From NCBI GenBank assembly GCA_900095095.1, contig FMBT01000506.1, positions 1 to 64,000 of the forward strand: a stretch of DNA of 64,000 bases. Direction: 5' to 3'. Below, in pieces: positions 28,521-60,277 of this stretch (positions are counted from its first letter, which is position 1; each line of letters starts with the position of its first letter). Under the pieces are notes generated by a model. The model searched no databases, was not told where the DNA came from, and saw only the letters and a program-made list of their open reading frames with translations. This DNA comes from Fragilariopsis cylindrus CCMP1102. Lineage: Eukaryota; Bacillariophyta; Bacillariophyceae; Bacillariales; Bacillariaceae. The position numbers were made by a program, and so were the translations under genes.

Positions 28521-31429
28521 GGAGCCAAAACACGATAACATAATCATAATATAGTATAATCAGTGGAAGCCTTAAAACTTAAACAAAGGTAGAATAAAGA
28601 AGCAAAGGCTTTGTTTTTAGGGTAATTGGATCATTATATTACCACTTTGATGAAGCACTACCGTAACTCTAGATAAAAATGAGATGCAACATTTGTATTT
28701 CATGATTGAACGCATGACATGCATCATTACAAATAAGTAATGCATCACACTACTAATTGCACGTCATTGATGCTTGATGCTCCCACACACTCTCAGTCTG
28801 ACCTCTGGGGGGGGGAGGGGAGGGGAGGGGAGTGATTTCATGTATTGATGTCCGCATAGAAAAAGGGAATATAATGCAAGCTTAAAGCTATCAACTATTT
28901 AGAGTTTATACTATCAACTCAAAAATAAGCTGTGCAATGTACAAGCAGTAGTGGGTACTATTAAGAAGCATTGTTTAGCTTGTGTCTGCCGTAGATTATA
29001 ATATGTATGTATTATAAGAAGGCAATTTTCTAAAAGATACCCAGTTTGGTATGGTTCTTGCATAGCTAGCAGAAGATTATTACAACTGTTTATTGTATCC
29101 AGTAATAGATTTGTTAATGTTGTGGTACTAATGAAATCCAAGTCAAAGTTTCATTATGCATTGAAATAATTTGTAAAGGAAATTGCTCTACCAAAACAAT
29201 ACTCTTTTTCTATGCAGTTCTACTGGTGAGCAAAAGTCAATTGAAGTGAAGCAGACAGCATAACATAAGGTATGAACAGACATAACAACTCGTTGGTCCA
29301 CTCATCTCAATAGGCATTTGTTTGGTCTAATGAATTTATAGAAGCTGGTAGTAGCAGGCTTCCAGGACTAACTATTACATAAGGTTGTGTTAAAGTAAAT
29401 AATATCATGAAACAGAAACACTATACCAGGAAGGATTCATTATGGCTCACTGCAAATAATATTAAGTCACAAGCTACTATGCACTCAAAAAATGTCCTAT
29501 TTTCAATTGGAATTGTTCTGCAACTTTGCTGCATCATATTATTCAAACATTGGTGCTGTAAGACATTTCATTTTTGGATGGTATGATGTTAGGCCTTATG
29601 ACACTAATACCATGGCCAACAATCTTTATTTACAATTTGGTTTCTACTTACTCTGATGATGATCAAGTAGTACAAAAAGGGTCTTAGTCACAATGTTTGT
29701 TTGATTGCACCCTTACTCACAAGAAAGGGAATAGACGGTACAGTAGATGACGGTAGAAAGGATCCATATCTTTCCAATATGAGTGGTTGACATTTCCAAA
29801 AGTCTACTGCAGGTTAGAAACTACAGTATGTGTTGGCTCATTACTTCTTCCAATTTCAATTGGTGATTGAGTTGCAGCTATTTGAATGGTACAGTCACCA
29901 GTACAGCTACACTTAAAGATTTCATTTTGTAGATACTAATAAAACTCTTGATCTGGCTTTGATAGGTCCAAGGCAAGGGGAGCTTGTATAACCACTGTGC
30001 TGCACCACCCGCTGTTTCATCTTCTCCTGGTCCCGCAGATTTATCAAAAGACTGGCTGATTAGTGGATTTACAGGAATACCCCCAAAAAGGGAAACTGCA
30101 TATGTGTTTTCTCACGTTGAAGGTGCAAATAGGAGGTGCGCAAACGTAAACCAGTAACTTTTGTAAGTAAAAACAATCAGATCCAGTCAGAACATGACTG
30201 CTAATCACATTGAAGTTCCCAAATATCACATAGCTATCAAAGGGAACATTTGATGAAGAATAGACATTCAAGTGGTGGGTGGACCTCCCCTAGAAAGAGA
30301 GTCTGCATGTTGTAGAACCATAATATGCGCACTCGTATAGTAGTATTATTACTGTGTACTTGCATATCTAGCTCTTTCTGGATTCACATGGTGTGTGCAC
30401 AGGATAGCCATTCCAAATGTTGGTAAGGGATATTTTTTGCCATGACGCATTTACATCATCCTCCGCCCCACCAAATTTGGTGGTAGGGAAAAAGGCTTGG
30501 TATTTCCCTTTCTCTATCTCCTGTCACAAATAGAGGATACTCATTAGTAATTAGCCACCTCATCTCATCAGTCAAGAATTTTGGGATATATATATGCTTT
30601 ATGCATACATGTAGCTAAGAGATTTTGTCATTTGACTGATGCTGCAATAATGTTCAATTCAACATCAAAATGTTGTAAGCAAAAAGTAACAATCAATGAA
30701 AGCATCAACAAATAATCAGTCTTTTTGTAGATAAAGTCGAATCTGTATGGTCTTACATAGTAAACTGTGAGAGTTTAGTGGAAAGAGCTGACCTCCAGAG
30801 TTTTATACTGGTGCAGATAATCAACACAATTAAAGTCTGGATCGGTCATACCTATCTAATAAAAGGTTTTTCAAACTAAATCAAATTTGTATGCAATATA
30901 CTGTAGAGTTGTAATCAATATCGTTAGCTAGCCAGCTACATTGTAGGCACGAAAAAACAAATTGTGATATACTGTAGTGTCAGTAGTTTGTTTGTCACTA
31001 TGACCTAAGATACATGATCTAGCCATTTACTTCAATTCAACAGGCCAGTTGCCACAGTAATAGCTACAGCTACTGTATAGTTGAATGAAAATCCTGGCAG
31101 CTTATTATTGGGTTTAGTAGGCGGCAACCATGTGAAGTTTGGATGCGGAACATGTATGGACTGACTTTGATACTGTACCACTAGTGATAGTTGATTGCCT
31201 GGGGAAATCATTAAAAGCGGGGGTATTTATTGTACCTACTGAAGGTATGGTTGTGAACGCCTTTTTGTTGTTCTTGATAAAAGGTTTTAGAACAATTACA
31301 CCTCAGCTCGCATCACATAACTCCTGCTCTCGTTGCACCTCGTCAACCTTTCATATAGCATCCATCACCCGAAATAGCGAACTGCAAACAGAATAAAACG
31401 GGCAAGCATTACAGTAATCCATTGTCGAC
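28521..31429. other. Gene-free 2.9 kb
   Basis: AT-rich, with only short random frames. It holds a G-run near 28807-28830 and no terminal repeats I can pair. It may contain decayed mobile-element sequence or a long 5' region of the P2X gene, but I see no direct support for either. Confidence 0.5.
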
Positions 31430-32842
31430 ATGATTTGTGCCTACGATACTGTGAAATATGTCCATATTAAAGATGCCCGACTGGGCGCTCTCCGCTATTG
31501 CTTGCTTATTATCATCTTTATTTACGTTATTGTGTTTGAAATGTGGGCATTAGGAGGGTATCTAGAGTCATCCCCTGTCGTCGGTGTTGTTCGATTCAGC
31601 TTGCAACAGCCCACGGCGAAAAACTGCGATCCTTCCCAACCGGGATGTTTCAACGCCTTCTCGTCGTTGAATACGATCGAGTATTGCGAACAATACGATG
31701 CCAATAAAGTCGCAGCCAACAATAATAAATCTATACAGTACAAGGGGAATATCTACCCATGTGAAATATACGAAGCAATCAATGCTCAAATCCTCAGTGA
31801 AAAGTCTATTACCGTGATTACACGTGCCACACTAACAAACCAGACTTTGGCTTGTCATGAACACGATCTCACCTGCTCTCGGACCTATAATGATGCGCTG
31901 TCATTGTCCTCCTCTTTCTTGGAGCGTAAATATTACATTGCTCAAAGTGAAGCTTTCACACTGTTGTTTGACCATGCCGTGACTGCATCTAAAATTTGCA
32001 CCAACCATGGTAATAGCCATCCATCTTCTACGAGTTATACCTGCTCCGCACAGGCGTCCGATTACGAAGGACGTTTATTTTCTATTAGTGATCGTCTCTG
32101 CGTACAGGAACACAGTAAAGGAAACGCTTTCAAGGATTATCGTGGGGCAAAAGAGACCGACTAAGCACCATGCTATATCCTACCGAATCGAACGAGTACT
32201 CACCAGGATGTTTTCTCTCTCGAAGTCCTCTTGATGGCAGCCGGGGTGAATTTGGATGATTGTAGTACGAGTAGTAGCAGTGGAAAACCGTGCCAGACGT
32301 ATCGCGACTCGGGTGCTACCATGCTGCTCAACATTTACTGGGCCGATTTCAATCTCTACCAAGGACGCGTTGAGCCATATTACTATTACAAAACCCAGTT
32401 TATTGCTGGATCCACGTTTAAGCAGTACATCCCCTTTTATGATAATAATTACAGACAATCGAGAACGTTACTGAATGCACACGGAATAAAAATTGCCGTG
32501 CTGCTTGGTGGAGAATTCAATCAATTCAATGCTGTGACTTTTCTGGTGACACTCACAACGGCTTTGGGTTTACTGGCAGTTGCCACAACAATTGTGGACA
32601 ACCTAATGCTGTACATTTTGCCAGAACGGGAACGTTATCAAGAGGTAAAATATGAGAATACTGAAGAATTTGAGCAAAATGGTGGAGTTCTCTCCGCTAC
32701 ACTGATGGCTGGACTGAATCAGCTTGTAAGTAGTCGACAGGATGACGGAGTGCTAATAGACCACCCGGACGAAAATATAGCAGTACCGGTAGTAGCAGAC
32801 AACGCAAACGAACACGATGCCTTGAATGAGCCTCTTTTGTAG
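31430..32842 (+). CDS. P2X-type ligand-gated ion channel
   Basis: Starts at the ATG at 31430. MICAYDTVKYVHIKDARLG carries the YxTxK motif that opens P2X receptors. It is followed by TM1 (LLIIIFIYVIVFEMW, about residues 25-45), a Cys-containing extracellular loop, and TM2 near the end (FLVTLTTALGLLAVATTIVD) before a cytosolic tail. Just before TM2, RTLLNAHGIKIAVLLGGEFN matches the P2X RTLxKAYGIRF...GxF segment. The usual ATP-contacting Lys there is Asn, and I see no KxK pair after TM1. P2X channels are trimeric cation channels; in Dictyostelium they act in the contractile vacuole. The frame is continuous except for a TAA at 32162-32164. The same frame then goes on with DVFSLEVLLMAAGVNLDD. A short intron near 32114-32165 (donor GTAAAG) is possible but unproven. 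Length about 470 residues. Confidence 0.8.
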
Positions 32843-32996
32843 ACAACGTGTAGATTATAGTAGTAGTGTGAATTACATGAGAGGCTACAAAATAAATGCA
32901 GTGGTCTCAGCGTCACATGTATACATAAATGGGCATACTTTCTGCTCGAAGCGTATACAAATCAGTTAATTTCTCACAGGTTTGGTAAAGTAAGCT

Positions 32997-33245
32997 TTAC
33001 ATCATAATATCACCAAGATATTCTCGTGCACCTTCACCCTTTCCGCTCCTAGCTTCAGGTGATGCCCATTTGATGGAACTGTTGGCCTTCATAAAAACTG
33101 ATAATAGCTCCGAGGTGCTCTTGCGCATCATTTCCATCCTTGTACAAGATATCGTTGACCCAAACGCAGTTGAATCCTTTGTCTCGGCAGATCCACGCTT
33201 CTTCGATTTCCTGAAATTCTTTGTCGTCCCTAGCAAAATGGGCAT
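32997..33245 (-). pseudogene. 3'-terminal fragment of an unidentified conserved gene
   Basis: Minus-strand sequence reads HFARDDKEFQEIEEAWICRD and then GFNCVWVNDILYKDG in one frame. It continues as NSSIKWASPEARSGKGEGAR...YLGDIMM and a stop in another. The change falls at a TTTTT run (near 33090-33110). Composition and Trp/Gly pattern look like real protein, and the ending resembles a conserved C-terminus, but I cannot name the family. Upstream on this strand there is only the short repeat array and mobile-element sequence, so the gene body is missing. It is probably a relic cut off by rearrangement. Confidence 0.5.
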
Positions 33246-33264
33246 ATTATGACCGACCTCTTTG

Positions 33265-33385
33265 ACTAAATGTATCATACTTCAACATATCTTACTTCAA
33301 TGTATCATACTTCTTTTTAACACATCATACTTCAACATATCATACTATTTAAATGTATCATACATTCAATGTATCATGACCTCAA
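33265..33385. repeat. Degenerate short direct repeats, TATCATACTTCAA type
   Basis: About seven imperfect copies of a 13-18 bp unit around TGTATCATACTTCAA lie in a row between the gene fragment and the inverted-repeat element. The open frame over them is a repeat artefact. Confidence 0.9.
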
Positions 33386-34159
33386 CTTCAATGCTTTTCT
33401 CATTTATATATATAACTTGTTATTTAAAAGCTGCAGCTTTGACCCGCCTTGCTTTTCTCATTTAGCACAATCAATCTCTTCATTTTTTTAATTTCTTGAG
33501 GCTAGCATGGCATCCTCTCCCCAGTGCTTTGTGTTAGTGTTATTATATTAGCCTCAATACCAAATCTACACAGGAAAAGCATGGGGGGAAATCTCCCACA
33601 CATCCAACAGTCTCTGTGCTTTTGAATCTAATATCATAGTTTCATTTTTCAACAATATAGAAAATGACTATGGTATTGTCTCATTTTGAATCTGTTCCTT
33701 CCTTCTTTACATGTTGTTGTTGTTGTTGTTGTTGTTGTCAGTCATCATTCATTGCGTTTGTTGTGGTTTACTGTTGTTACTTCATTCATTCATTCATTTG
33801 GTGCTTCTTTTGCATTTGACTATGGGATTTCTCTTTCTTGCTTGCTAGATAGACCGCTGATGTATGTGTCATATCCTCCCCTTTGCTGTATTGTTGTGAT
33901 CTGAATTCTTATTCTGTGTTGCAAGATTTTGTGAGCATCAATTAATTTGAATCTATGTCCTAACCATTGCTTTATTTCTTATTTGCTGTATCCTTATTTC
34001 ATTATCATTCTCTATTTCTGACTGATAGTCAACCTAGCATATGTTGGATTATCCGTGTCCTTTATACTGGTCCTTTTCTTTCCGTTCAAGCGGAGGGCCT
34101 TTCTTCTTCTGGTACGGCCTGCTCAAACCCCCTGCTTCTTGTAGCCAACCAAGCATGAC

Positions 34160-34394
34160 TGTTGAGATTCTAGTTTAGATAAGAGTTTAATATTAGTTGT
34201 TAAGGTTGTTCTAAACGATTTATGGGCTCTATCTTAGGCTGTCCTTGAGACGCTGTGTTGCTTGTGTTAGTGGTGATAGGCATTTGTTGTTTGAATTGGA
34301 TTTGGGGTTTGACTGGCTTGTTTGACTGTTTGAATCGGTGCGCGATAGTAACGGTATTTGCGGTTTGTCCGTCGTGCGTGTTAAGATTTCAACA
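34160..34394 (-). repeat. 3' LTR of the Copia element
   Basis: Bounded by TGTTGA and TCAACA; matches the other LTR throughout by eye and abuts the ATGAC target duplication on its left. Because the element is on the minus strand, this is the downstream LTR. Confidence 0.97.
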
Positions 34395-37300
34395 CACCCT
34401 TGCAAGCTAGTTGGACTTTTTCCTTCGATATATGTATAGATAGGTCTTAGTTTCCTGTGTGTGGCTGGTGAGTGGTATTTGGTGTAGTAGTCGGCAAGGT
34501 TAACTTTGCCCGGTGCCCAGAATACGTTGTATTCTCCTTGTTCCACCCTGTCCTGTACCCAGTAGAATCGTTTGTCCATTGCTTTACTTTGTTTTTGTTT
34601 GATTGTTTTATTCATTATTCCATCTGCTGTACTGTTATCTGTTCGTAGTGGTGTTGGTGGTTGTGGATGGCCTAGTTCTTCTAGCGTTGTTCGCATTGGT
34701 GCTAGTTCCTGTGCATTCATGTATAGTGCTCCCACTTCTGCTTCTGCTGCTGATGCCATTACTGCTTTGATTATTTTGGCTAGTATATATATTGGTCCGT
34801 TGAATTGGGTTCCCTTTTTGTTGCCTAGGTAGTGATATCCGCCTGCGCGGCTTCTTGATTTTGGTGCTACACAGTAGGCTGCATCACTGTCACATGATAA
34901 TATCATGTCGCTGGCTCTGTAAATTATGGTTGCGTCTGGGTTGCTGGCACAGTAGTTTAGGAATTGTATTAGTGCTGCTTGCGTGTCTTCTGTTGCTGTT
35001 GTTGCCTTGATGCTTAGTTCGTTGAGTGCATGTAGTTGTGTGCTGTCTACCGATCTTCCATCATATAGAAACTTGCCACATACTTTTTGGATGTGGTTCT
35101 TTTGTAATAGAGTTAGTTCCGGTGTTGTATCTTCTGTTGTATACTGTACTTTCTTTCCATATTCCGGTGCTACATATTTTGTTGGTCCATAGTGATGTTT
35201 TGATGGTGTTGGGTGTTGGAATTGCTGTAGTGCTCGCTTTACATACCCCTTCATTGACAGTTTTACTTCTCTTTTCTCGTAGTTCCATTCAAGGTCAATT
35301 CCGATATATTTGGATCCGGTCCAATCAATCTTGAGTGGATATTTTTCTTTGATTGCTGCAAATAGGTGGTCAATGTCGTCCTTGTTGGTGTATTTCACTC
35401 CAAAGTCGTCTACTACCAGTGTGAAGCTGATTGGTCTTGTTTTATGTTTCCATAATCCTGGTGTACGTTTGGTTGGGTAATATCCGTACTGTGCTAGGTG
35501 TTCTTGGAGGTCTTCATTAGCAATACGACCGCTCTGTGCTAGTCCATACATTGCTCCGGTGATCTCTAAATAGGCATAGTCATCTGCTTCCACATATTGC
35601 ATTACATTGTATTCTTCTATGATTTCTGTTGGGATTAAGCTTATGTGAATTCTCATGTATTCAGATGATTTGAGTTTTGAGTTGGTGTAGAAGTTTCCTA
35701 TATCGGCTGCCGCGTACTGTGCATTCTTGGTTGATATGGTACTGTTGAGGTGTATCTTGATTGTCTCCAGTCCTGCTGTTTCTGTGCTTGTTTTTCCATC
35801 ATATGGTAGTCTGTCACCTCCTACTGTTAGTCTGGTTCGATTGATATCATCTTTTTGAAGTCGTACATCGCAGCAGAATCTAGCGTATGTTACTTTCTTT
35901 CCTATTGGAACTGTTTTCGCTTGATGAAGTGGAATGTGTCTGATCCTTTGACTCGTTGTGTACCATCTGCTTTCTTTCCTACTCCTTTTAGAAGTTTGCC
36001 AAATTCATTTGCTGCTGATTTTTGCCATGCTTCCCGTGTTTGTTTGTCTGAGTGGTTGACTAGTTGTTTGTAGTCTATCATTTTGCCTGTTGCTTCATCA
36101 TATACTGTCATTGCAAAGTGTCCTGGTAGTTTTCCTCCTGCTGCTGATGGATTGTTCCTGTTTTGTCGTACGATGTTGGCCCTTTGTAGTCTTGTTGATA
36201 GTCTGGTCATTCGTCTTGTTAGATCTTTGTCTGTATCAATGCATCGAAACTGGTTGAGTGTTCTACTGCTAACTTGTTCGTTATCTCCACTTTCATACTC
36301 AATGAAATATAATCTTTCATTTTCATTGTAGTGGGTGACTTCTCCTCGTTGGATGGTGTTGTTGTAGCTCTTCATAATCTTGGTTCCTATCTCATCTTCG
36401 GTAATTGTTGGTAATGCCACCCTTGTAGCTACTCGGTTCGTACCTTGGTTCGGAAAGTATATTTGGTTTTCCACTGGATGACCTACTCGGTTCGGATCTT
36501 GGTTCACGAAGAATTGTTGTTGGTTTTCCACTGGATCACTCACCACCCTTGTAGCTGCCCATGCCGGCACCCTTGTAGATTCATTCTGTTGTCTAGGGGT
36601 GAATATTTCACGTAACTTGTCATGGCGTCGTTGGTTGTTGTACCTTGATCAAGAAATGGCGTTGGTGGATGTGGTTTTTGGAGTATTGCTACTAAATCTT
36701 CTGTTACGCTTGCTAGTCTATCTTCTGATGATGTCTTTGGCATTTGTACATGTTCAGGGAAGAATTCAATTGTGTCTGTTGTTCTTTCTCCTCTTGTTGC
36801 TGGTATGTATACTCTATAATTCCGATAATGATGTTTGGCTGGTCCAATGAAGTATCCTTTTACTCCATGGTCTGCCCATGTTTTTCTATCCTGTGGTCTC
36901 TCATGTGCCACAATGAGGCATCCGGGTGGTGCTAGTGGTGTTTTGGTTGAAGTCAAAGTTACCCCATAACTCATTGTAGGCTGACTTCGCTGGATTGATT
37001 CGTGATGGCCGTAGCATGTTGAGTGTTAATATTGCCACTTGTAGTAATCTATCCCATTGGCTTTTTGGGAACGTTGGATCACACCCATACAGTGTTGATA
37101 CGAAATGATTTTTGACTGTTTGTATTGCTCTCTCTGCAGGTATGGTCCGATGGTTGCCTCTTGGTGCTATTTGGTATTTTAATCCTCTTGATTCTATCTC
37201 TTCGATGAGTTCCTTTGAAAATTCATTGTCTATTCGGTGTAGTACTGGATTGATGCCTGCTTTCTTCAGTGTATCATGCATCTCAATGAATCCTGCTATT

Positions 37301-39760
37301 AGGTGTTCTTTTGCTCGTGATTTGATTGCCACTGCTAGGATTGCTCCTGAATCACTATCCTCCATCACCATGATATATCGGTTTCCTCTTGATGATGTGT
37401 GTGGAAACGCACCTGTTTGATCACTTGAGGTCATTCCTTTCAGGTCTGCAAAGTTTACTGCTGTTATCTGTACAATGTGCTCCCGATTCTTGATTTCTCT
37501 TGGTGGTAGATAGTCTGGATCATCTTCTTCATCTTCCATGATGTCTTCCGTTGTTACTTTGTCTGTTGGACGCAGGTTCTTTCTGACTTTGTGTAGATGC
37601 CCCATAGTTGTCTGGATTGATTTTGGTAGGTGTTTTCTGATGCCATTGGATGTTAGTCCTGGAATGATGTTAACCAATTGTTGTCAATTGCTTTGATTAG
37701 TGTTGTGACAACTGGAGCTCCTAATGTTGCATGGTGCCAGGCTTGTAGCTGTGATGCTGATTTTTGTTGGTAGGCACTGTTGGCTGTGTGCTTTAGTTGG
37801 ATTACAAATGGTCTCTTGATCGGCTTCACCTTGTTGTTGTTATTGCTTTCTAGTGGCATCAACCATAAGTTTGTTTTCAGCGTCTCTTGGTCCTTCAATT
37901 ATTATTTTGTTTTCCTTGATTACCTGTACATTTTTCTTTTTGAATACTACTGTGCAGTCGGCATCACATAGTACTGGTACTGATATTAATGATCGGTCCA
38001 TTTCATTGAATCCGTGTGCTCTCTGTGCTTCCATTGGCAGTTCTGGTGCTAGTTGTAGTTGCCTGGTTGTTACAGAGTTCATCGTGTTTGTGTTGGCCAC
38101 TCCTACGTTGATTTCTTCATGATGTAGTGGTTCTCCTAGATACTTGTGTTTGTTCGATAGGAACATGCTGGTTGCTGCTGAATCCGGATGACCCTGTGGT
38201 GTTGTGACTAATAGTGCTTTGAGGTTGTTTGTGAGGGTTGACAAACGCGTTGAACTACTATTGCTTGTTACTGCTGCTGCATATGATATATGCCTGGTGT
38301 TGATACGCGAAGATGATGTGTATATATTTAAATCAGTATTATTTATTTTATTTTGACTTATCTTACTATTCACCTCCCCACCTTGTCAAGTGACAAAGTG
38401 GCAGTTGGTAGTGACACCTCCCATCTTGTTAGCGAGTGTTGCTGCTTCATTGTGGCAGGCCTTTCGGTTGGTGCATGTACCTGGGGTGTGTGTTGGTTTG
38501 ATATCATATCCACACGATGGACAGTAGTTAGTTGAATCTGGTATCTGCGTTTTGATCGTTCACCATTTCCTAGATCATTCCGGATGTACTCTGTTCCAAA
38601 CTTGTTCTTTTTCTTCTTTGCTGTACCTGCATTGCCTTCACCTTGGTTGTTGTTTTGAGTGAATTGTGCAAACATCTGCATCATTTCTTCTTTGGTGACC
38701 GTGCTTGTTGCACTACTACCACCGGCGCTGCTTCCGTTGCTGCTGCCTGTGCTGATTGAAGCTGGGATCCGTCCGGGGACCTGGTTGGTTGCACTGTTCG
38801 CTAATTGTTGTTGTTCAATCCTTGCTTCTAGTTCTTGGATCTTCTGTGTTTGTAGGACCAGTACCTCCGATGCTTGTCTTTGGGCATTTTTCATCTTCTT
38901 TGGTTTGTGCTAGAACTGCATTTGCTAGTTCTGTTCTTTTCATGATGGCTGGATCGGTCTTATTCATCTGAATTTCTTTGCTGAAGTGCTTTCTCATCTC
39001 CTCCCATGTGGTTAATGTTCCGCGGTTCCATTCTCTACATGCATCCTTCAGGTCAATATTCTTTTCAAAGGTTGCGTACGCATTTCGCATTACTTCTGCA
39101 TCAGTTACAGTTTCGCGGAGACCAGTTAATAGTTCTCTTGCTTCATTGATTGCTTTGTAATAGTGTTGGACTATTCGATCTGGATCGTAATCTACCTTGA
39201 GTAGTTCTCTTGCATGTAGGATTTCCCGATCCTTGTCTACTGTTAGGATGAAATTAGTCCACATGTGTTGATATACTTCATGTGGTGATACTCCCAGTAA
39301 TAATCCATCGGTTTCTAGTTCAATAAATAAATCTTCATCGAAGCATGCTTGGATTGCTTTGTTGGTGTTGCGCTTGTGTTCCTCGTATTCTTCATAGAGT
39401 TTGAGGGCTTGCTTGTGCGCTGCATTGAGTATGTTGGTGTCTCCGATGTATGGTCCTGGGTCGGCTGGCACTGGTACTTGTGCTGTTATTCCCTTTTTTA
39501 GTATCCATTGTGCTTGAGTGCACATTATCCATGACCATCCATGATCTCTTGCTTCTGCGATGTTGCATTTGTAACTAGTTTGTACTTTTGCCATCTGTTT
39601 CTGGAATGTAATTAACTGTCCCGTTGTTGGTATTCCGGCTACTCGATCAATGCCTGAGTAGTCGTATTCAATTTCGATTTTGGTCATGGTCAATACCTGT
39701 GACTGTTTCGTAGGTTAGGTTGGGTCTAGCTTCGTGTCCTGCGACAATATTGTTTAGAAC

Positions 39761-39995
39761 TGTTGAGATTCTAGTTTAGATAAGAGTTTAATATTAGTTG
39801 TTAAGGTTGTTCTAAACGATTTATGGGCTCTATCTTAGGCTGTCCTTGAGACGCTGTGTTGCTTGTGTTAGTGGTGATAGGCATTTGTTGTTTGAATTGG
39901 ATTTGGGGTTTGACTGGCTTGTTTGACTGTTTGAATCGGTGCGCGATAGTAACGGTATTTGCGGTTTGTCCGTCGTGCGTGTTAAGATTTCAACA
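39761..39995 (-). repeat. 5' LTR of the Copia element
   Basis: Second 235-bp copy with the same termini, followed on its right by ATGAC. It carries the promoter side of the minus-strand element. Confidence 0.97.
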
Positions 39996-40798
39996 ATGAC
40001 CCTACCCAAAAGTGCCATCACTTTGGCTCAAGGCATGTATCTTTTTGTCCCATTCATTTGATCTGTTTGATCATCCATCATCATATCCTTTCTGTCAATC
40101 CTTTTTTCTTTTCATGCCATCCATATTGGGAACTGCTACCAAATGCATGCATACCATCATTTTTCCATCAGGATCATTATTTGTAGCATATCTGTCATCT
40201 GGGGTCATGTTCTTTGTTCCACCATTCTTTTCAGTATTGTATCATTATGTTTTTACTATCTTATCTGGATCTTAAGGAGCGAAGCTGCAGCTATTAAATA
40301 ATAAGTTATATATACTTGTGTACCTAGCTATTAGGTCCTATTTATTTATTGAGTACAGTATATTATATATTGTTTGTGGTTGACGCACGTCATGCTTTCA
40401 AAACACACGCGACAAGAGGAATTCTTACACACAATAATCATCCAGATCATAAGTAGCTAGATGGATCTCGCCATCACATCATTAATTCTTTTCCTTTTTG
40501 GCGCAATTCAATAGATAAGATCGTAACGGTAGGCAGACCCTATTGATCACAACGCTACAAATAAATCTTGTTGACAATACTACCTCTGTTCTATATTACT
40601 GTAGTACAGCAACTTCAGGAGAGAAACAAAAGAGCAAGATCTGGTATTTCAGTAGGAACTGACGGAAATGTCTATAAGGTAGGAATAATATTCCTGTTTT
40701 TGTATCTAGCTCTATCTGTCGATAGAGACAAAAACGTCAGTTATCTCCAATAGAGCTTTTGAAGGAAACGAACAGGGTACGGTACGTGATTTTCCAGA

Positions 40799-43700
40799 AT
40801 GGAAAAGAATATGAAAAATAAATGGCAAGTTCGTCGAGAGACTTTGAAAGCAACAACGAACATAATAGATCCCATGATCACAAGAAAAAGAAGCAGACGA
40901 GGTAGTAATGGAGCGATCATAGTAGGACTATTATTTATGTGTTGCTGTATGATTATCCCTACAGCATTGGCATTTATTTCTCCATCTCAAAATTGTGATG
41001 TTCTATCGATCGAATCTTCCAACACACGAAGGATACACAATAATAATTTGAAGAAGAACCCTGCCGTTGCGAGATCGTTTCCATCATCATCATCATCATC
41101 ATCATTGTCCACAATAATACCATCGACCACGGTAAGAACGAAATCATCATCAACTACTAGTACGGCGTTATTTGGTATTAAAGGATTCCGTTCCTGGTTT
41201 CAAGAACAATTCCCGAATGCCGTTCGACACGTGGATGTGGATACATATCAAGACAAGTTCGATCATGTATTGGTGGATATGAATCAGATCTTACATGTCA
41301 TATTACGTCGGAGTCGCAATCAAGAACAAGTGACTAAGACACTTATGTTTGAATTGGATCTGTTAGTATCACGTTGTAATCCCACACAATCATTAGTCCT
41401 TGCCATTGATGGATCACCCGCCGCTGCAAAATTAGCCACACAACGAAAACGACGGTTTGCTATCTTAAAAAATACACAATTTAAATTAAAACATTCGGAT
41501 AAACTCCGAATGACGAAACGACAACGTGCTCGACGGAAAAGGAATTACAAAGCAGAATTACAATCCTTACAACTAACACCCGGCACGGCTTGTATGCAAA
41601 ATATGGAAGCGGTCTTATTGTATTGGGCATGGCAACGGTTACAAACACAAGGGAAACCCCATTCGAAGCTCTTACCGAAAGTTCGGATCTATATCAGTTC
41701 CTCATCGGTACCGGGAGAAGGTGAAATCAAACTATTAGAATGGATTAATAATTATCGTGGACATTTATCGACCAAGCCCGGTCAATCATTGCCTTGATCG
41801 GTGGTGATGCTGATTTACTGTTAGAGGCGATGGTGATTCCTCCATCCTGGACACACAATGTGTTCGTCTTACGACCAGAAGAAGCCGATAACAATAATAA
41901 AAGCAAAGCAAAGATGAAGGCGAAAAAACCAAAACCAGCAGAAAAATCCACCAAAAGCAGCAAGAATGGCAGCAGCAGTAGCAGTAGCAACAACAACAAT
42001 AAATGGAGTGGCAGAAAAGATAATATCATGCACTGTACTAGTTTATGGGAGATGACATTAAGTCTCGACGATTATTGTCGAAAGAATATATCAACAAAGT
42101 ATTACGATCCCGAACACAATCCAAACGATCAAAACTTACTCCTACAAATACGAACTGATATGGTTCTGTTGTTTATGCTAAATGGGAATGATTATTTACC
42201 CCGTGTCGTTGCTGTTGGATTTCGTGGTGTATTACGAACGTATTTAACTTTATTAGAACAATGGATTGACACGAAACAAACAACTCAAAATATTGGGTTA
42301 GTCGATCCGAATACATTACAATTCAATTCTGATTTTTGTTCGGATTTCTTTCATATTTTAGGTCGTGATGCACCCACCGAACAAGAACGATTACGAAGTG
42401 CCATGCAAACGAAACGAAAGACATATCATTCGATTGTGAACGATATGAGTGCAATAGGGTTTCTTCCAGCACCGGTTAAATTCGAGATAGTGGACAATGA
42501 TGGTACTAATGAACAAGTAGTGAAAGTGGAGGATGATACACATGCGCAGATTGAAGAAGATGATGACGAAGAAGAAGAAGAAGACGACGATTACGACGAC
42601 GACGACGCTGATGATGATACAGTCGACGATGGAGAAGAATTTGACAACGACGATTACGACGATGACGAAGACGATGATCTTGATAGTGATGATTCGTTGT
42701 CCGAAGAAAATAATGATATCGCATCGAATGATGAGGAGTCAGAGGACGAACTGGACATGATGCAGCTATCTCTCGGAAAAATAAATTCGAACGACTATCA
42801 CGAATACCAAATCTCAGTCAACGCCGGTTCCTCTAATAGTAAAACAACTGCAAAAAATTCACTAGCGAAGATTGTGTTAAATGAGTTTAAGTTACTCGAA
42901 TTTGTGGAGAGTGAAGGAGATATGACGAAACTCGACTACGAATGGGAGATAACCGTTCCCGCTGCTGCTAATTTAGATCGATATTTGGGAGGCCTGTTAT
43001 GGACCTTACAGACATACCAAGATGGTGTTTGTCCTAGCTACAGTTATAATTATGGAAAGTGCATGGCACCCACAGGCCGTACGATTGCCGCGTACTTTGA
43101 TCAAGCGATCCATGATAAGAGAGATGTGGGAGCAGAGGAACTTTTACAAAATTTTGAACCTGGTGGGTCCATTAGTGCTGGTGTAGCTTGCTTAGCTGCA
43201 TTGCCAGTTTCTGTGAAAGATCTCGTACCAAAGCCGTACTCACTTATTGCAGATGCAACTGTGGAAGATTTCTACTCCCAATGCATGGACCCCGTCGATA
43301 ACTTCTTCTATTTTAAAAAATTCGAGGAACTCGTCGATGCTGAAGTCAAAAGGATGACGAAAGACGGATTGAATAGCGAAAACACAAAAGATGATGATAT
43401 AGACGCATCTCCTGGTCGTCATATAATACTCGGTGATCACTACTGGACAGTGCTGAAACGAGGGAAAGAGGTTATGGAACACCCATTTCGACCGCCTTCA
43501 CCACCGACCGAGAATTTTTCAAAACTAAGACCTAATTCTCGTATTACGGCAAGTCGCATCATTAGTATGGATCGCCCACCTCCAAGAGCTTCCAATACTA
43601 AAAATGCAACAAAAGCTGATGAGCGACCATCGAAAACACGTTACCCTCGTAAATTCTGGGTCAAAAATATGATCGATATCGATCATTTGAACTTCGGATC

Positions 43701-44682
43701 TTTGATCACTGGATCAGAATCTTCTTCGGTGTCTCAAATTCCATACAAGATTGCGTTTGGATCATCCCCCGATATGTACGGGGGTTCACGACAAGCAAAC
43801 GACAAGACAAGTTTCAAACTACTCAATTCGAGTCCAGTGGATGTGTTATATAAACAAAGTACCGTCGACAGTAATGACCAATTGGCAGAGATAGCTATCT
43901 CTACCCCGCTTCATACCCCCATTCTGAATCCTGAAAGTCAGAGTGCACTTGTTATCCTGAAACAACTCTGTGACATTCGGCTTGTGGGTTGCTATACGTT
44001 CGATGATTCTCCGAATCACGAGATTACGCTGACTATTGCAAAGCCTGACGAAATTAACGTTATCCTGCCTGTGGAAAAACTAACATTCACTCTGATAAAG
44101 GAAAATAGTCAAACGGAACAATCGGTGAAACAATGCCTGGCATCGTTGGCTCTTGATTCAATGATGAATTCTGGTGGTATGATGAAAGACGAAAAACAAC
44201 CCCGAGTACGATGGTACGATTTGACGTTTCAGGGCACGAAAGACTTTTTGGAGCTTCACCATTCTGGAACCGCAGTTGCAAAAAAATCATCAAACGTAGA
44301 TACGAATCTTGAGAATCAAAGTGCATTAGTAATTCTGAAACAGCTGTGTGATATTGGTTTAGTACAATGTTATGAATTCAACGAGGTCCCAGGATCATCC
44401 GATCATCCGGAAAAGACCTCTCTGTTTCTATACAAGCAGGGCTCGTCGTCACCGGAAAGTTCCTCGGAAGAGGAGGTGGTGCCGTTTCTTTCATTTGAAC
44501 GAAATAGGATCACCGAATCAAAGAAATGGGTACGACAACATTTGGTGTCGTTGGCTCTAGATGAAATGATCTTGAATGGTACAGCTAATGACAATAAAGG
44601 GGGTGATGATAATCTAACCAAAATTCACTGGTATGATCTTACTTTTCAAGGTATCAAAGAACGTATCTGCCTTCACCAATGA
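40799..44682 (+). CDS. XRN-family 5'-3' exoribonuclease with plastid-type presequence and duplicated C-terminal domain
   Basis: The ATG at 40799 gives a basic N-terminus, a hydrophobic helix (GAIIVGLLFMCCCMII) and TALAF|ISPS, the signal-peptide plus Phe motif of diatom plastid presequences. A Ser/Thr-rich transit region follows, then ALFGIKGFRSWFQEQFPNAV. XRN_N signatures follow: DMNQILHVILRRS, LAIDGSPAAAKLATQRKRRF, TPGTACM, SSSVPGEGEIKLLEWI and IGGDADLLLEAM. Another conserved XRN stretch is MLFMLNGNDYLPRV-like. A one-base frame change lies at about 41760-41795, between LLEWINNYRG and the IGGDADLL motif. A long Asp/Glu region (42540-42750) leads to two tandem copies of a roughly 120-residue domain. 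Both open QSALVILKQLCDI and end WYDLTFQG, and they loosely resemble double-stranded-RNA-binding folds. XRN enzymes degrade 5'-monophosphate RNA processively. Plastid location is an inference. Confidence 0.82.
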
Positions 44683-45041: not shown

Positions 45042-45965
45042 TCATTTCTTCTTTTTTCTGGACGACATAATATTACCCAGCCATGTAATAAAGGAATATC
45101 GGAATGATTTTTTAAATGGCATCGCTTCTCGGAAGGGTAATCCTTTTCCAACACCATAAAAGAATCCGAATGCGCCACCTAATCCACCAGTATTGCCATA
45201 TTGTCGATCCACTGTATAAAATCCATATTCCGTCAGTTTCATCTCTTCATCAAAATCAGCATGATGACATTCCGGTGGTAGAATTAAATTGCCCTTATTT
45301 TTGGCATTTTCCTTCGACATGCCCATAAAATCACTTGTCATTTGTGCGGTATTGGAGGTTAAAAAGTAAACACGATTGGGTTGCAGAGGTGAGACCGTAA
45401 ATCCAAATCGATTAGTTTCGATATCAAAAGAATCTTCTAATTTAAATCCACCTAAGGCATCTAAAAATGGTTGTTTTCCAATCGGACCCACCACCGCCGC
45501 ACAGAATTGAAAATTTTCTGCTAAGCATTCACCACTATCACCCAGTCCTAACATAATTTCTGGATCAAATAATTTTTTCGTTTGTTCAATCAACTCAGAT
45601 GATTTGTTATCAAAAAATGCCGCCTTCGCTGCTACTTCTTCGTCGTTCTTCTTCTGGTCCAAGGATTGTTGTTCCATTTGTTGAATAAATTGATCGGTGG
45701 ACACAGTTTTAGATCGTTTCTGATGATCCCTAATTATTTGACGTGTCAATTTCAGGTCTTTTTCTGCTGCTTTCGATGTTGGTATTGCGACTGCAGCTGT
45801 TGCGGCCGCATTGAGTTGTGTATCAACTGCGACATTATAGTGCTGCTGTCGTTGTTGTTGGTGGTTGGAAGATCGTGATGAAGTGCTAAATGCATCCGCC
45901 GTCGACGAAAAAAGTCCCAATAGAAGGAAAATCTTCGACGTTTCAATAGTAGTACGCATTTTCAT
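45042..45965 (-). CDS. SnoaL/NTF2-like plastid protein
   Basis: A 307-residue single exon. The N-terminus KIFLLLGLFSSTADAF|STSS is a signal peptide followed by the Phe+1 motif and a Ser-rich transit region, the bipartite presequence of secondary plastids. A charged helical stretch comes next. The C-terminal 170 residues (FDPEIMLGLGDSGECLAENF, AAVVGPIGKQPFLDAL, GFTVSPLQPNRVYFL) match the SnoaL-like small-domain proteins common in diatoms, a cone-shaped alpha+beta fold of mostly unknown activity. Start ATG at 45965 is preceded by a (GTC)n tract in the 5' flank. Confidence 0.82.
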   Translation of the reverse strand: MKMRTTIETSKIFLLLGLFSSTADAFSTSSRSSNHQQQRQQHYNVAVDTQLNAAATAAVAIPTSKAAEKDLKLTRQIIRDHQKRSKTVSTDQFIQQMEQQSLDQKKNDEEVAAKAAFFDNKSSELIEQTKKLFDPEIMLGLGDSGECLAENFQFCAAVVGPIGKQPFLDALGGFKLEDSFDIETNRFGFTVSPLQPNRVYFLTSNTAQMTSDFMGMSKENAKNKGNLILPPECHHADFDEEMKLTEYGFYTVDRQYGNTGGLGGAFGFFYGVGKGLPFREAMPFKKSFRYSFITWLGNIMSSRKKKK

Positions 45966-57785: not shown

Positions 57786-60277
57786 CTACTTCGATGATGA
57801 AGTATCTTTATTTTCATTTGCATTTTCATTTTCATTGACATTCTTGTTCTTCTTCTTGGTATTATGATTATTGTGATGCCGATGCTGATAGACTAGAAGT
57901 TGATCATTGACTTGTTTCATAATGGTACCCAAATTACCATCACCGGTATCTTCCCAACAGAATTGTTTGGCATGTAAGGATGTGATATCCACGGTCTTGT
58001 ATTCGACACCCTTCGGTGGAAAGGATTTATCATAATCAATTCGTCCATCACCAGGAACGGACTGTCCGGAACCATAATCATATTCCCAACGACAATAATC
58101 CTTTCGTTGGTTTTGGTGGTCATCTTCTTCTTGAGAAGTTCCATTCTCTAGTATACCACCACCATCATTATCGTCGTTATTCATTATTTTCTTCTCCTTC
58201 TCCTCCTTGATTTGTTCTTTCTTCTCCAATAATGATAACAATGATCGAGGGAAATAATCAGAAACTTTATATCTACCAGAACCAGAACCAGTACTTGTAG
58301 TAGTTGTTGTCGGTCGACGTCGTCGTCGAAGAATTTGATTCACAGTCGGTACGGTATTCGTGGAGCACACTATAATTGGAGGGAGTTCTTTTCCCTTCTC
58401 CACGTCGTTATCAAGTAGTGGTGCTAAAATTGTCTTCCGCCATCGTTTGGCATCCTCCATTTGTAGTTTCATATGTTGTTTGTATTCTAAAAGAGTCTTC
58501 TTCTCCAAAATTTGATTATTTTTATAATAGGGATCAAAGATACCAATTTCATGTTTTTCCCATTCGTCGGGATTATAAAAATCAATTGATATCCGTTTGC
58601 CGGGTGTCGCTGGTCGTCGTATATTTGATGATGATTCAGTTATATTTGCTTTCTTTCCGATGGTACTTACATCCGCTTCAAATGCAATGATATCTGGATC
58701 TTCTTCGGTCACATCGACAAATAAGTTTCCAATGTCAGTGGCGGAGGTGGGAAAGAAGGACCAATGACTTGAAAATGTAAATTGTGTCGGTGGTAAAAAT
58801 TGACGACACGTACCTAATTCAGTAAAATATCCTTTATGTAAATCTTGTAAATATTGGATCCCCGTACCGAAGGGTACACCCACCAACACTGCACCGACCG
58901 TAAATTTCTTGGGATATAATTTCATCGCACCATACGCAATCAAACCACCTAAGGAATGTGCGACAATTTGTATTTTGGTATCGGGATTTGGAAATTCTTG
59001 TTCACAATAATGATAAAATTCATCGGTCAATTCAAATAAATTTCGACGCCAATCATACACAAAGGATCGTGTCGGACGTGGATTATCTAACATTAGTTCT
59101 TTTATTTTGTGATATCATCATCATCCTCGATATCGATATCGTTGGTGTCACTGTTACTACCGACAGCAGTGGCAGTAGCAGTAGCAGAAGCAGCAGCGGT
59201 GGAGTTGTTGTTATTGTTGTGTGCATCATTGATGTCTTCCAGGAATTTTGTCACATGACCATAAAATGGAAAAAAATCAAAGTTGTTCTTACTATTACCA
59301 GTATTAATATCAATTATCGTACTCAATTCGACAATATGATCCACGGTCCCATCCACAAAGTGTTCACCTCGATCTTGGATTGGAAACTTGGACGACGGCG
59401 ATGACGATTTTTCTTGATTGTTGTTGTCGTTTTCTTTGTCATCTGAATCGATCAACGAATTATAGGACAATGGTAAGGAAATATCACGATCCGGATGATA
59501 ATCCACTTTTCGTGGAAAATTCAATAATCCAGTTAAACTCAACCAGGATCGTATTTTTTTCTTCTTTTTGTTTTTTTTGGCGTTGTTTCCTCTGATGTTT
59601 TTTTCATTTTCATCACCGTCGTTTTTGTTTTTGTTATTGTTATTGTTATTATTATTGGTTTGAGTTTGGTGATGAAATGCAAGATGCGATCCCTTCATTC
59701 CATGTAAGAAGATAAGTGGTACAACCTCGTCGTCGTCGTCGTTGTTGTCGTTGCAAGATGATGACGACGATGTCGACGATGACGATATAAGTCGTTTGTC
59801 GGTTGATGATATTTCTATTAGATCAGCACTCGTACTAATTGCTTTCAAGAACGACGAAGATGATGAGAACAATAATGAGGTTGAAAACGTACGACGCTGC
59901 CGCAACAAGTTGTTGTTATGACAGAATAATTTCTGTGGAGGATGTTGATGTCTATCATTATTTTGATTCACTACACTACTAGAAGTACGGACGTTATTAT
60001 TATTTGGTAGCTGTAATGATCTCATCATCATCATCATTGATGTTGTTGTTGCTGCTGCATACCGCCGTGATTGTGATTGTGACGATGACATCATCGAAAA
60101 AGTTGTTCGTCCAATGAAAGCACGACATCCTACTACGACATACCGATTCGATATAATAGCAATAGTAGTCCTCCTCGGCATTGTTCTTGTTCTTGCCACG
60201 CCGCCGAATGCTGTTACTTTTTCTGCTATCAATACTGCTACTAGTAAAAGTAGTAGCAAGTAACAGTAATGGCTCAT
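57786..60277 (-). CDS. Alpha/beta-hydrolase lipase (LCAT/PGAP1-like) with plastid-type presequence
   Basis: The ATG at 60277 gives LLLLLLVAVLIAEKVTAF|GG, a signal peptide plus Phe motif pointing to the plastid. A Ser/Asn-rich N-terminal region leads to VVPLIFLHGMKGSHLAFH, the oxyanion strand of lipases. The nucleophile elbow is IQIVAHSLGGLIAYGA, and FGTGIQYLQDL, RQFLPP and PGDGRIDYDKSFPPKGVEY resemble LCAT-like lipases. The open frame ends just after an Asp-rich run, and the next begins 8 bases on. A one-base change in an A-run near 59100 would give DITKIKELMLDNPRPTRSF, a natural continuation. Galactolipid or phospholipid hydrolysis in the plastid is a guess from targeting and fold. Low-complexity tails give a total near 830 residues. 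Confidence 0.72.

Follow-up and report, generated by a model that had tools for sequence, protein, structure and literature searches.

Here, we present an analysis of a gene on the forward strand of a 64,000-nucleotide stretch of diatom DNA (the whole stretch analysed, hereafter the window), which forms the start of contig C98 in the searched assembly of 67.9 Mb and 818 contigs. Matches to silicon transporters in this assembly (27 rows, with E values reaching 1.1e-226) identify its source as a diatom. Judged from its sequence, the product is a real, diverged XRN-family protein, and we consider it likely that this nuclear gene supplies the plastid stroma with an imported 5'-3' exoribonuclease. 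The stronger finding is that this gene is one of a pair: two XRN genes bear a predicted plastid-type presequence, and RNase J and RNase E/G went undetected in our searches of this assembly. Given this second XRN and the failure to detect the usual bacterial-type nucleases of chloroplasts, RNA in diatom chloroplasts may be degraded by eukaryotic machinery. We treated contig C657 as the other haplotype of the window; C657 (taken without its first 1000 bases) matches the window over ~55 kb at 78-93% identity, with eight of ten blocks collinear and two short and out of order.

The XRN_N nuclease domain extends from the glycine of GIKGF at 41174 to 41871 (end approximate) and includes the motifs DMNQILH, AIDG, AKLATQRKRRF, VPGEGEIK, and GGDADL. 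The first-pass annotation had described the XRN N-terminal signature as complete, and the Pfam profile PF03159 bears this out, with positions 2-238 of 241 matched in C657. Against a Pfam cut-off of 22.9 bits, the first ORF of the window scored 126.9 bits (E 1.2e-36) and the C657 copy 146.2 bits (E 1.4e-42); solved Xrn1 and Xrn2 chains in the PDB also match (best E 3.1e-18, 7opk). When the protein is aligned with the products of C80, C29, C439, and C219 (the last without its third exon), the remaining XRN genes in the assembly, all seven expected acidic residues are kept; we take this catalytic set to comprise the D of DMN, the D of AIDG, both E of GEGE, both D of GGDAD, and the D of GND. Excerpts of PMC8850482 name K93, residue 97, R100, and R101 together with His41 as residues of the 5'-phosphate pocket, and the window protein retains the K-Q-R-R pocket (AKLATQRKRRF) and the DMNxxxH histidine (DMNQILH); position 97 is printed as E97 in that source and is Q in the sequences of this genome. 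A low-complexity Lys/Ser/Asn-rich insert lies at 41881 to 42024 (limits approximate).

A putative, diverged XRN_M core containing GNDYLPR and YLGGLLWTLQTYQDGVCPSYSYNYGKCMAP occupies 42157 to 43281 and is interrupted by an acidic Asp/Glu-rich loop at 42526 to 42756. Pfam gives no XRN_M match in the window ORFs or in C657. Using a local profile built from the same four XRNs (C80, C29, C439, and C219), the region scored 22.8 bits when the acidic loop was removed (a weak but co-linear match, with 0/500 shuffles as high) and −1.5 bits when the loop was retained (230/500 shuffles as high). The motif GLLWTLQTYQDGVCPSYSYNY aligns with CPSWSW of 3pie with a Trp-to-Tyr exchange, so that the Trp of the SWxW motif is absent from the window protein, which reads CPSYSY, while the other XRNs have SWxW/Y. 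In the SWxW motif, a Trp stacks on RNA. Over 1274 aligned codons (codons touching an indel were left out), dN/dS between the window and C657 is 0.16, with values of 0.065 for XRN_N, 0.057 for 42041-42500, 0.026 for 42881-43500, and 0.115 for the linker; in the acidic loop, we counted eight nonsynonymous and no synonymous changes. The failure of Pfam to recognise XRN_M, the Trp-to-Tyr exchange, the long inserts, and the existence of a canonical C80 enzyme that could provide the exonuclease all speak for a protein that is imported but no longer acts as a processive exonuclease, serving instead to bind RNA or to cleave it internally under the guidance of its C-terminal modules. We regard such a loss of activity as unlikely because the protein retains the seven acidic residues as well as the His of DMNxxxH and the whole K/Q/R/R pocket, and its core is under strong purifying selection.

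The protein closes with two modules at 43942 to 44268 (SALVILKQLCDIRLV ... RWYDLTFQG) and 44314 to 44679 (NQSALVILKQLCDIGLV ... HWYDLTFQG). These had been described as two tandem modules of 120 residues; the duplication stands (49/127 identical, E 4e-21), but the lengths are 109 and 122. The modules are 39% identical and have SALVILKQLCDI and WYDLTFQG in common, and dN/dS is 0.23 for module 1 and 0.084 for module 2. The earlier remark that no XRN was known to carry them was borne out in Pfam, the PDB sequences, and this genome: nothing above chance was found in Pfam or the PDB, matches in the genome were confined to the XRN gene and its haplotype copy, and among viral contigs, 36 stretches fit a pattern and none was a relative. 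A likeness to SoFic (20 residues of module 2 against a helix of PDB 3zec) was discarded, as its E of 1.4 is at chance level. AlphaFold models of the modules (mean pLDDT 43.6 with four rows and 29.0 with two) were too poor to use; at low confidence, they suggest a layout of helix, strands, helix, and hairpin. The order helix-strand-strand-strand-helix prompted a reading as a dsRBD, which was supported neither by a small profile of seven sequences (−1.8 bits for module 2, a value equalled by 585/1000 shuffles, and none for module 1) nor by hhalign (probability 0.1%) nor by Pfam dsrm (no match). Our guess is that the C-terminal modules help to bind the substrate (RNA) or a partner.

At the other end of the protein, a predicted signal peptide with the cleavage site ALA|F (40874 to 40972, counted from the third in-frame ATG; the earlier ones are at 40799 and 40811) is followed by a transit-peptide-like region of 67 aa (40973 to 41173) that contains 40% Ser+Thr, 7 K/R, and 2 D/E and ends in STTSTALF. 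A signal peptide with ALA|F and, directly before XRN_N, a Ser/Thr-rich stretch had already been reported for this gene, and we find them in both haplotypes: STTSTALF leads straight into GIKGFRSW, the start of XRN_N, leaving no gap between the transit-like region and the domain, and the haplotype indels in the presequence are multiples of three or compensating. In a home-made score taken from the ATG at 40874, PTALA|FISPS after the hydrophobic core was equalled by 2/5000 shuffles in the window and 0/5000 in C657. The presequence is under weak constraint (dN/dS 0.74). A start at 40799 is less likely, as that ATG reads AAG in C657; 40811 and 40874 are retained there, and one of these is the likelier start. 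There are no in-frame ATGs between 40949 and 41279 and, therefore, no ATG start downstream of the whole presequence. The ATGs at 40937 and 40949 sit within the hydrophobic segment, and starts there would drop most of the signal peptide and keep the rest. The proposal of plastid targeting is thus strengthened by a presequence in both haplotypes, the lack of an ATG start beyond it, and the same anatomy in C80, but starts at 40937 or 40949 could yield a product with an incomplete signal peptide.

According to PMC4329603, plastid import depends crucially on Phe at +1. As reported in PMC3774753, the cleavage sites of diatom transit peptides have Leu at −2 preceded by hydroxylated residues (positions −3 to −6), and transit peptides measured in Thalassiosira are 12-42 residues long; for the comparison, we took Leu at −2, Ala or Ser at −3, and hydroxylated residues upstream of it. 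STTSTALF|G has Leu at −2, Ala at −3, and Thr/Ser/Thr at −4 to −6; misfits to the rule are the length (67 aa, and 44 aa in C80, compared with 12-42), the Phe at −1, which is not of the preferred class, and the nonacidic start of the mature protein. If applied to the window protein, the published diatom rule (Leu −2) would expose a glycine equivalent to the Gly that follows Met1 in ordinary XRNs. We conclude that the presequence of the window XRN is of the plastid type, a prediction that is convincing but unproven. The secretory route could also end elsewhere, either in the periplastid compartment, which was once the cytosol of the red alga, or in a different space of the endomembrane system. 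XRN, a eukaryotic cytosolic and nuclear enzyme, would be at home in the periplastid compartment, and periplastid signals are described as resembling plastid signals, with insensitive prediction, in sections of PMC12136025; in the same sections, however, a set of periplastid proteins lacks Phe at +1, while both the window gene and C80 have it. Moreover, the stromal cleavage motif is placed at the edge of XRN_N. To our knowledge, diatoms have no nucleomorph, and an RNA substrate in the periplastid compartment is, therefore, doubtful. Altogether, we consider a periplastid or other endomembrane destination improbable and favor the plastid stroma.

Searching the genome for XRN_N gave 10 rows, which we reduced to five genes: C98/C657 (the window gene), C80, C29/C608, C219/C299, and C439, with C608 and C299 assigned from the search result. 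The XRN genes on C29, C439, and C219 start with MGVP. The C80 gene (L010:4342-6863) encodes 784 aa, contains one GT-AG intron, and matches both canonical domains (XRN_N, 3.6e-79; XRN_M, 1.2e-80). Its N-terminus consists of a signal peptide with SDA|FAPP, a 44-residue region, and SMSLF|GIPKMF, and 18/5000 shuffles equal its home-made presequence score; KSTSMSLF|G has Leu at −2, Ser at −3, and Met at −4. On this sequence evidence, C80 is a second, canonical XRN with the same predicted presequence anatomy as the window gene. The two proteins are alike in the signal peptide, Phe at +1, the transit-like region just before Gly, and the catalytic motifs; they are unlike in that C80 has canonical XRN_N and XRN_M and lacks the C-terminal modules. 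The bipartite presequence is, thus, found in two of the five XRN genes, and in both it ends directly ahead of the Gly found after Met1 in the remaining three. From the MGVP starts and by analogy to FEN1, we infer that XRNs may need their N-terminal glycine.

Outside this genome, one stretch among the IMG/VR viral contigs encodes an XRN_N relative, perhaps a record of the same or a very near genome. Two partial XRN matches were found among 37 stretches of viral contigs (L034 and L035), and two short, weak ones among 68 stretches of genome contigs, in metagenome-assembled genomes (L032 and L033); no C80 relatives were found in the viral contigs.

The window gene had been presented as a single span read through from 40799 to 44682. 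Rather, there are two ORFs, 40799-41797 and 41830-44682, in different frames because one A is absent at 41787/41788, inside XRN_N, relative to C657. The first ORF holds the presequence and most of XRN_N, and the second, the frame of which stays open upstream beyond GGDADLLLEAM, holds the remainder of the protein. The C657 copy has breaks of its own (four bases absent at 41896 and one at 42777), and each break in either copy is open in the opposite haplotype. Indels not divisible by three separate the haplotypes in 8 of 11 gene intervals, with the XRN gene counted, and amount to 32 in total, some of which are compensating pairs or lie near the chosen ORF limits. In the C439 XRN gene (L013:4558-5993), the frame is lost through apparent one-base losses within DGVAPRAK and ERTIDDF, motifs that are kept in other XRNs. 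Because indels are widespread between the haplotypes and C439 shows these one-base losses, the base quality of the assembly looks poor. Based on dN/dS, purifying selection goes on beyond 41787/41788. Since the haplotypes often differ by indels that shift the frame and selection persists past the break, we take the break to be most likely an error of the assembly, more so than the mark of a dead gene; in the organism itself, the XRN gene is probably intact. We consider it unlikely that the XRN gene in the window is a pseudogene or an allele in decay, truncated within the catalytic domain by the one-base deletion and with a 9.4-kb insert upstream, since this reading, to which the broken frame, the two breaks in C657, and the upstream segment absent from C657 all lend themselves, has against it that every break is open in the opposite haplotype, that non-triplet indels in 8 of 11 intervals and the C439 losses in conserved motifs speak for poor base quality, and that constraint persists 3' of the break. 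Less probably, the window copy could be a null allele of very recent origin; the best fit is a working gene that the assembly renders with errors.

The extra segment itself (window ~30984-40360; ~9.4 kb) is not in C657 and stops ~450 bp before the XRN gene begins; by eye, its minus-strand ORFs resemble a Copia-type retroelement. On the minus strand at 45042-45965, a neighboring gene has a signal peptide and an ADA|F presequence, the home-made score of which is reached by 4/5000 shuffles; no Pfam match above the curated cut-off was found for it (best E 0.084), and its product is possibly a plastid protein. By eye, the start of a further minus-strand ORF at 59102-60277 resembles a signal peptide and shows VTA|F; its product is possibly also plastid-targeted.

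Among other enzymes of plastid RNA decay, profile searches of the genome identified PNPase twice with high scores, on C679 (L036) and C306 (L044). By eye, the C679 protein has a bipartite presequence laid out like those of the two XRNs, with a signal peptide and the sites VEG|F and TTSLK|D, while the C306 protein has no evident signal peptide, and from their sequences the two look like a plastid and mitochondrial pair. Neither RNase E/G nor the RNase J beta-CASP domain was matched in exon-by-exon searches of this assembly, which is possibly incomplete and may lack the plastid genome; as a positive control, Synechococcus elongatus was matched in the PNPase, RNase E/G, beta-CASP, and TIGR00649 searches. 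The single TIGR00649 (RNase J) match, at 25.4 bits, was set aside, as the gene reads as CPSF73-like and not as RNase J.

We suggest the following model. The signal peptide would direct the protein to the ER route and, as its motif indicates, be cut at ALA|F; the Phe-led transit peptide would then mediate passage across the inner membranes. A stromal peptidase would cut STALF|GIKGF with Leu at −2, making Gly the first residue, with C80 arranged likewise, and, to judge from conservation, 5'-monophosphorylated plastid RNA would be digested by the acidic residues and the K/Q/R/R pocket. Possibly, the window XRN replaces RNase J/E in the plastid. More tentatively, and with the odds somewhat against it, we speculate that the plastid of this lineage swapped cyanobacterial RNase J and RNase E for two imported XRNs, a canonical one and a diverged one bearing new C-terminal modules, kept bacterial PNPase for 3'-5' decay, and had the transit cleavage site set to recreate the N-terminal Gly that XRNs ordinarily gain when Met1 is removed. 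If true, two plastid XRNs without RNase J and RNase E/G would amount to eukaryotic-type RNA decay inside a plastid and open a testable question about the trimming of plastid transcript 5' ends and RNA surveillance in algae with red-derived plastids. Among the matches listed, which included few subscription journals, titles and abstract openings did not mention a plastid XRN, which does not show its absence from the literature.

The window protein has XRN_N, the acidic residues, the K-Q-R-R pocket, GNDxLP, and, putatively, the order of XRN_M in common with Xrn1/Pacman and Rat1/Xrn2. It differs from these in carrying a bipartite plastid-type presequence where they have Met1, and from the XRN family in its diverged XRN_M, accompanied by Lys/Ser/Asn-rich and acidic inserts, the Trp-to-Tyr exchange in SWxW, and the added tandem C-terminal modules. 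By Pfam, none of the Xrn1 D1-D4 domains is found in the window protein, while they are present in the C219 gene. In plants and green algae, plastid RNase J has the role in 5'-3' decay that is proposed here for the window XRN; RNase J is unlike XRN in its metallo-beta-lactamase/beta-CASP fold and bacterial origin. Land-plant RNase J also has an added C-terminal domain, GT-1, as stated in excerpts of PMC7154860. Finally, Pet127, as described in part of PMC9014873, resembles the predicted plastid XRN in being an organelle 5'-3' exonuclease distinct from RNase J; unlike the window XRN, it belongs to the PD-(D/E)XK superfamily and is mitochondrial.
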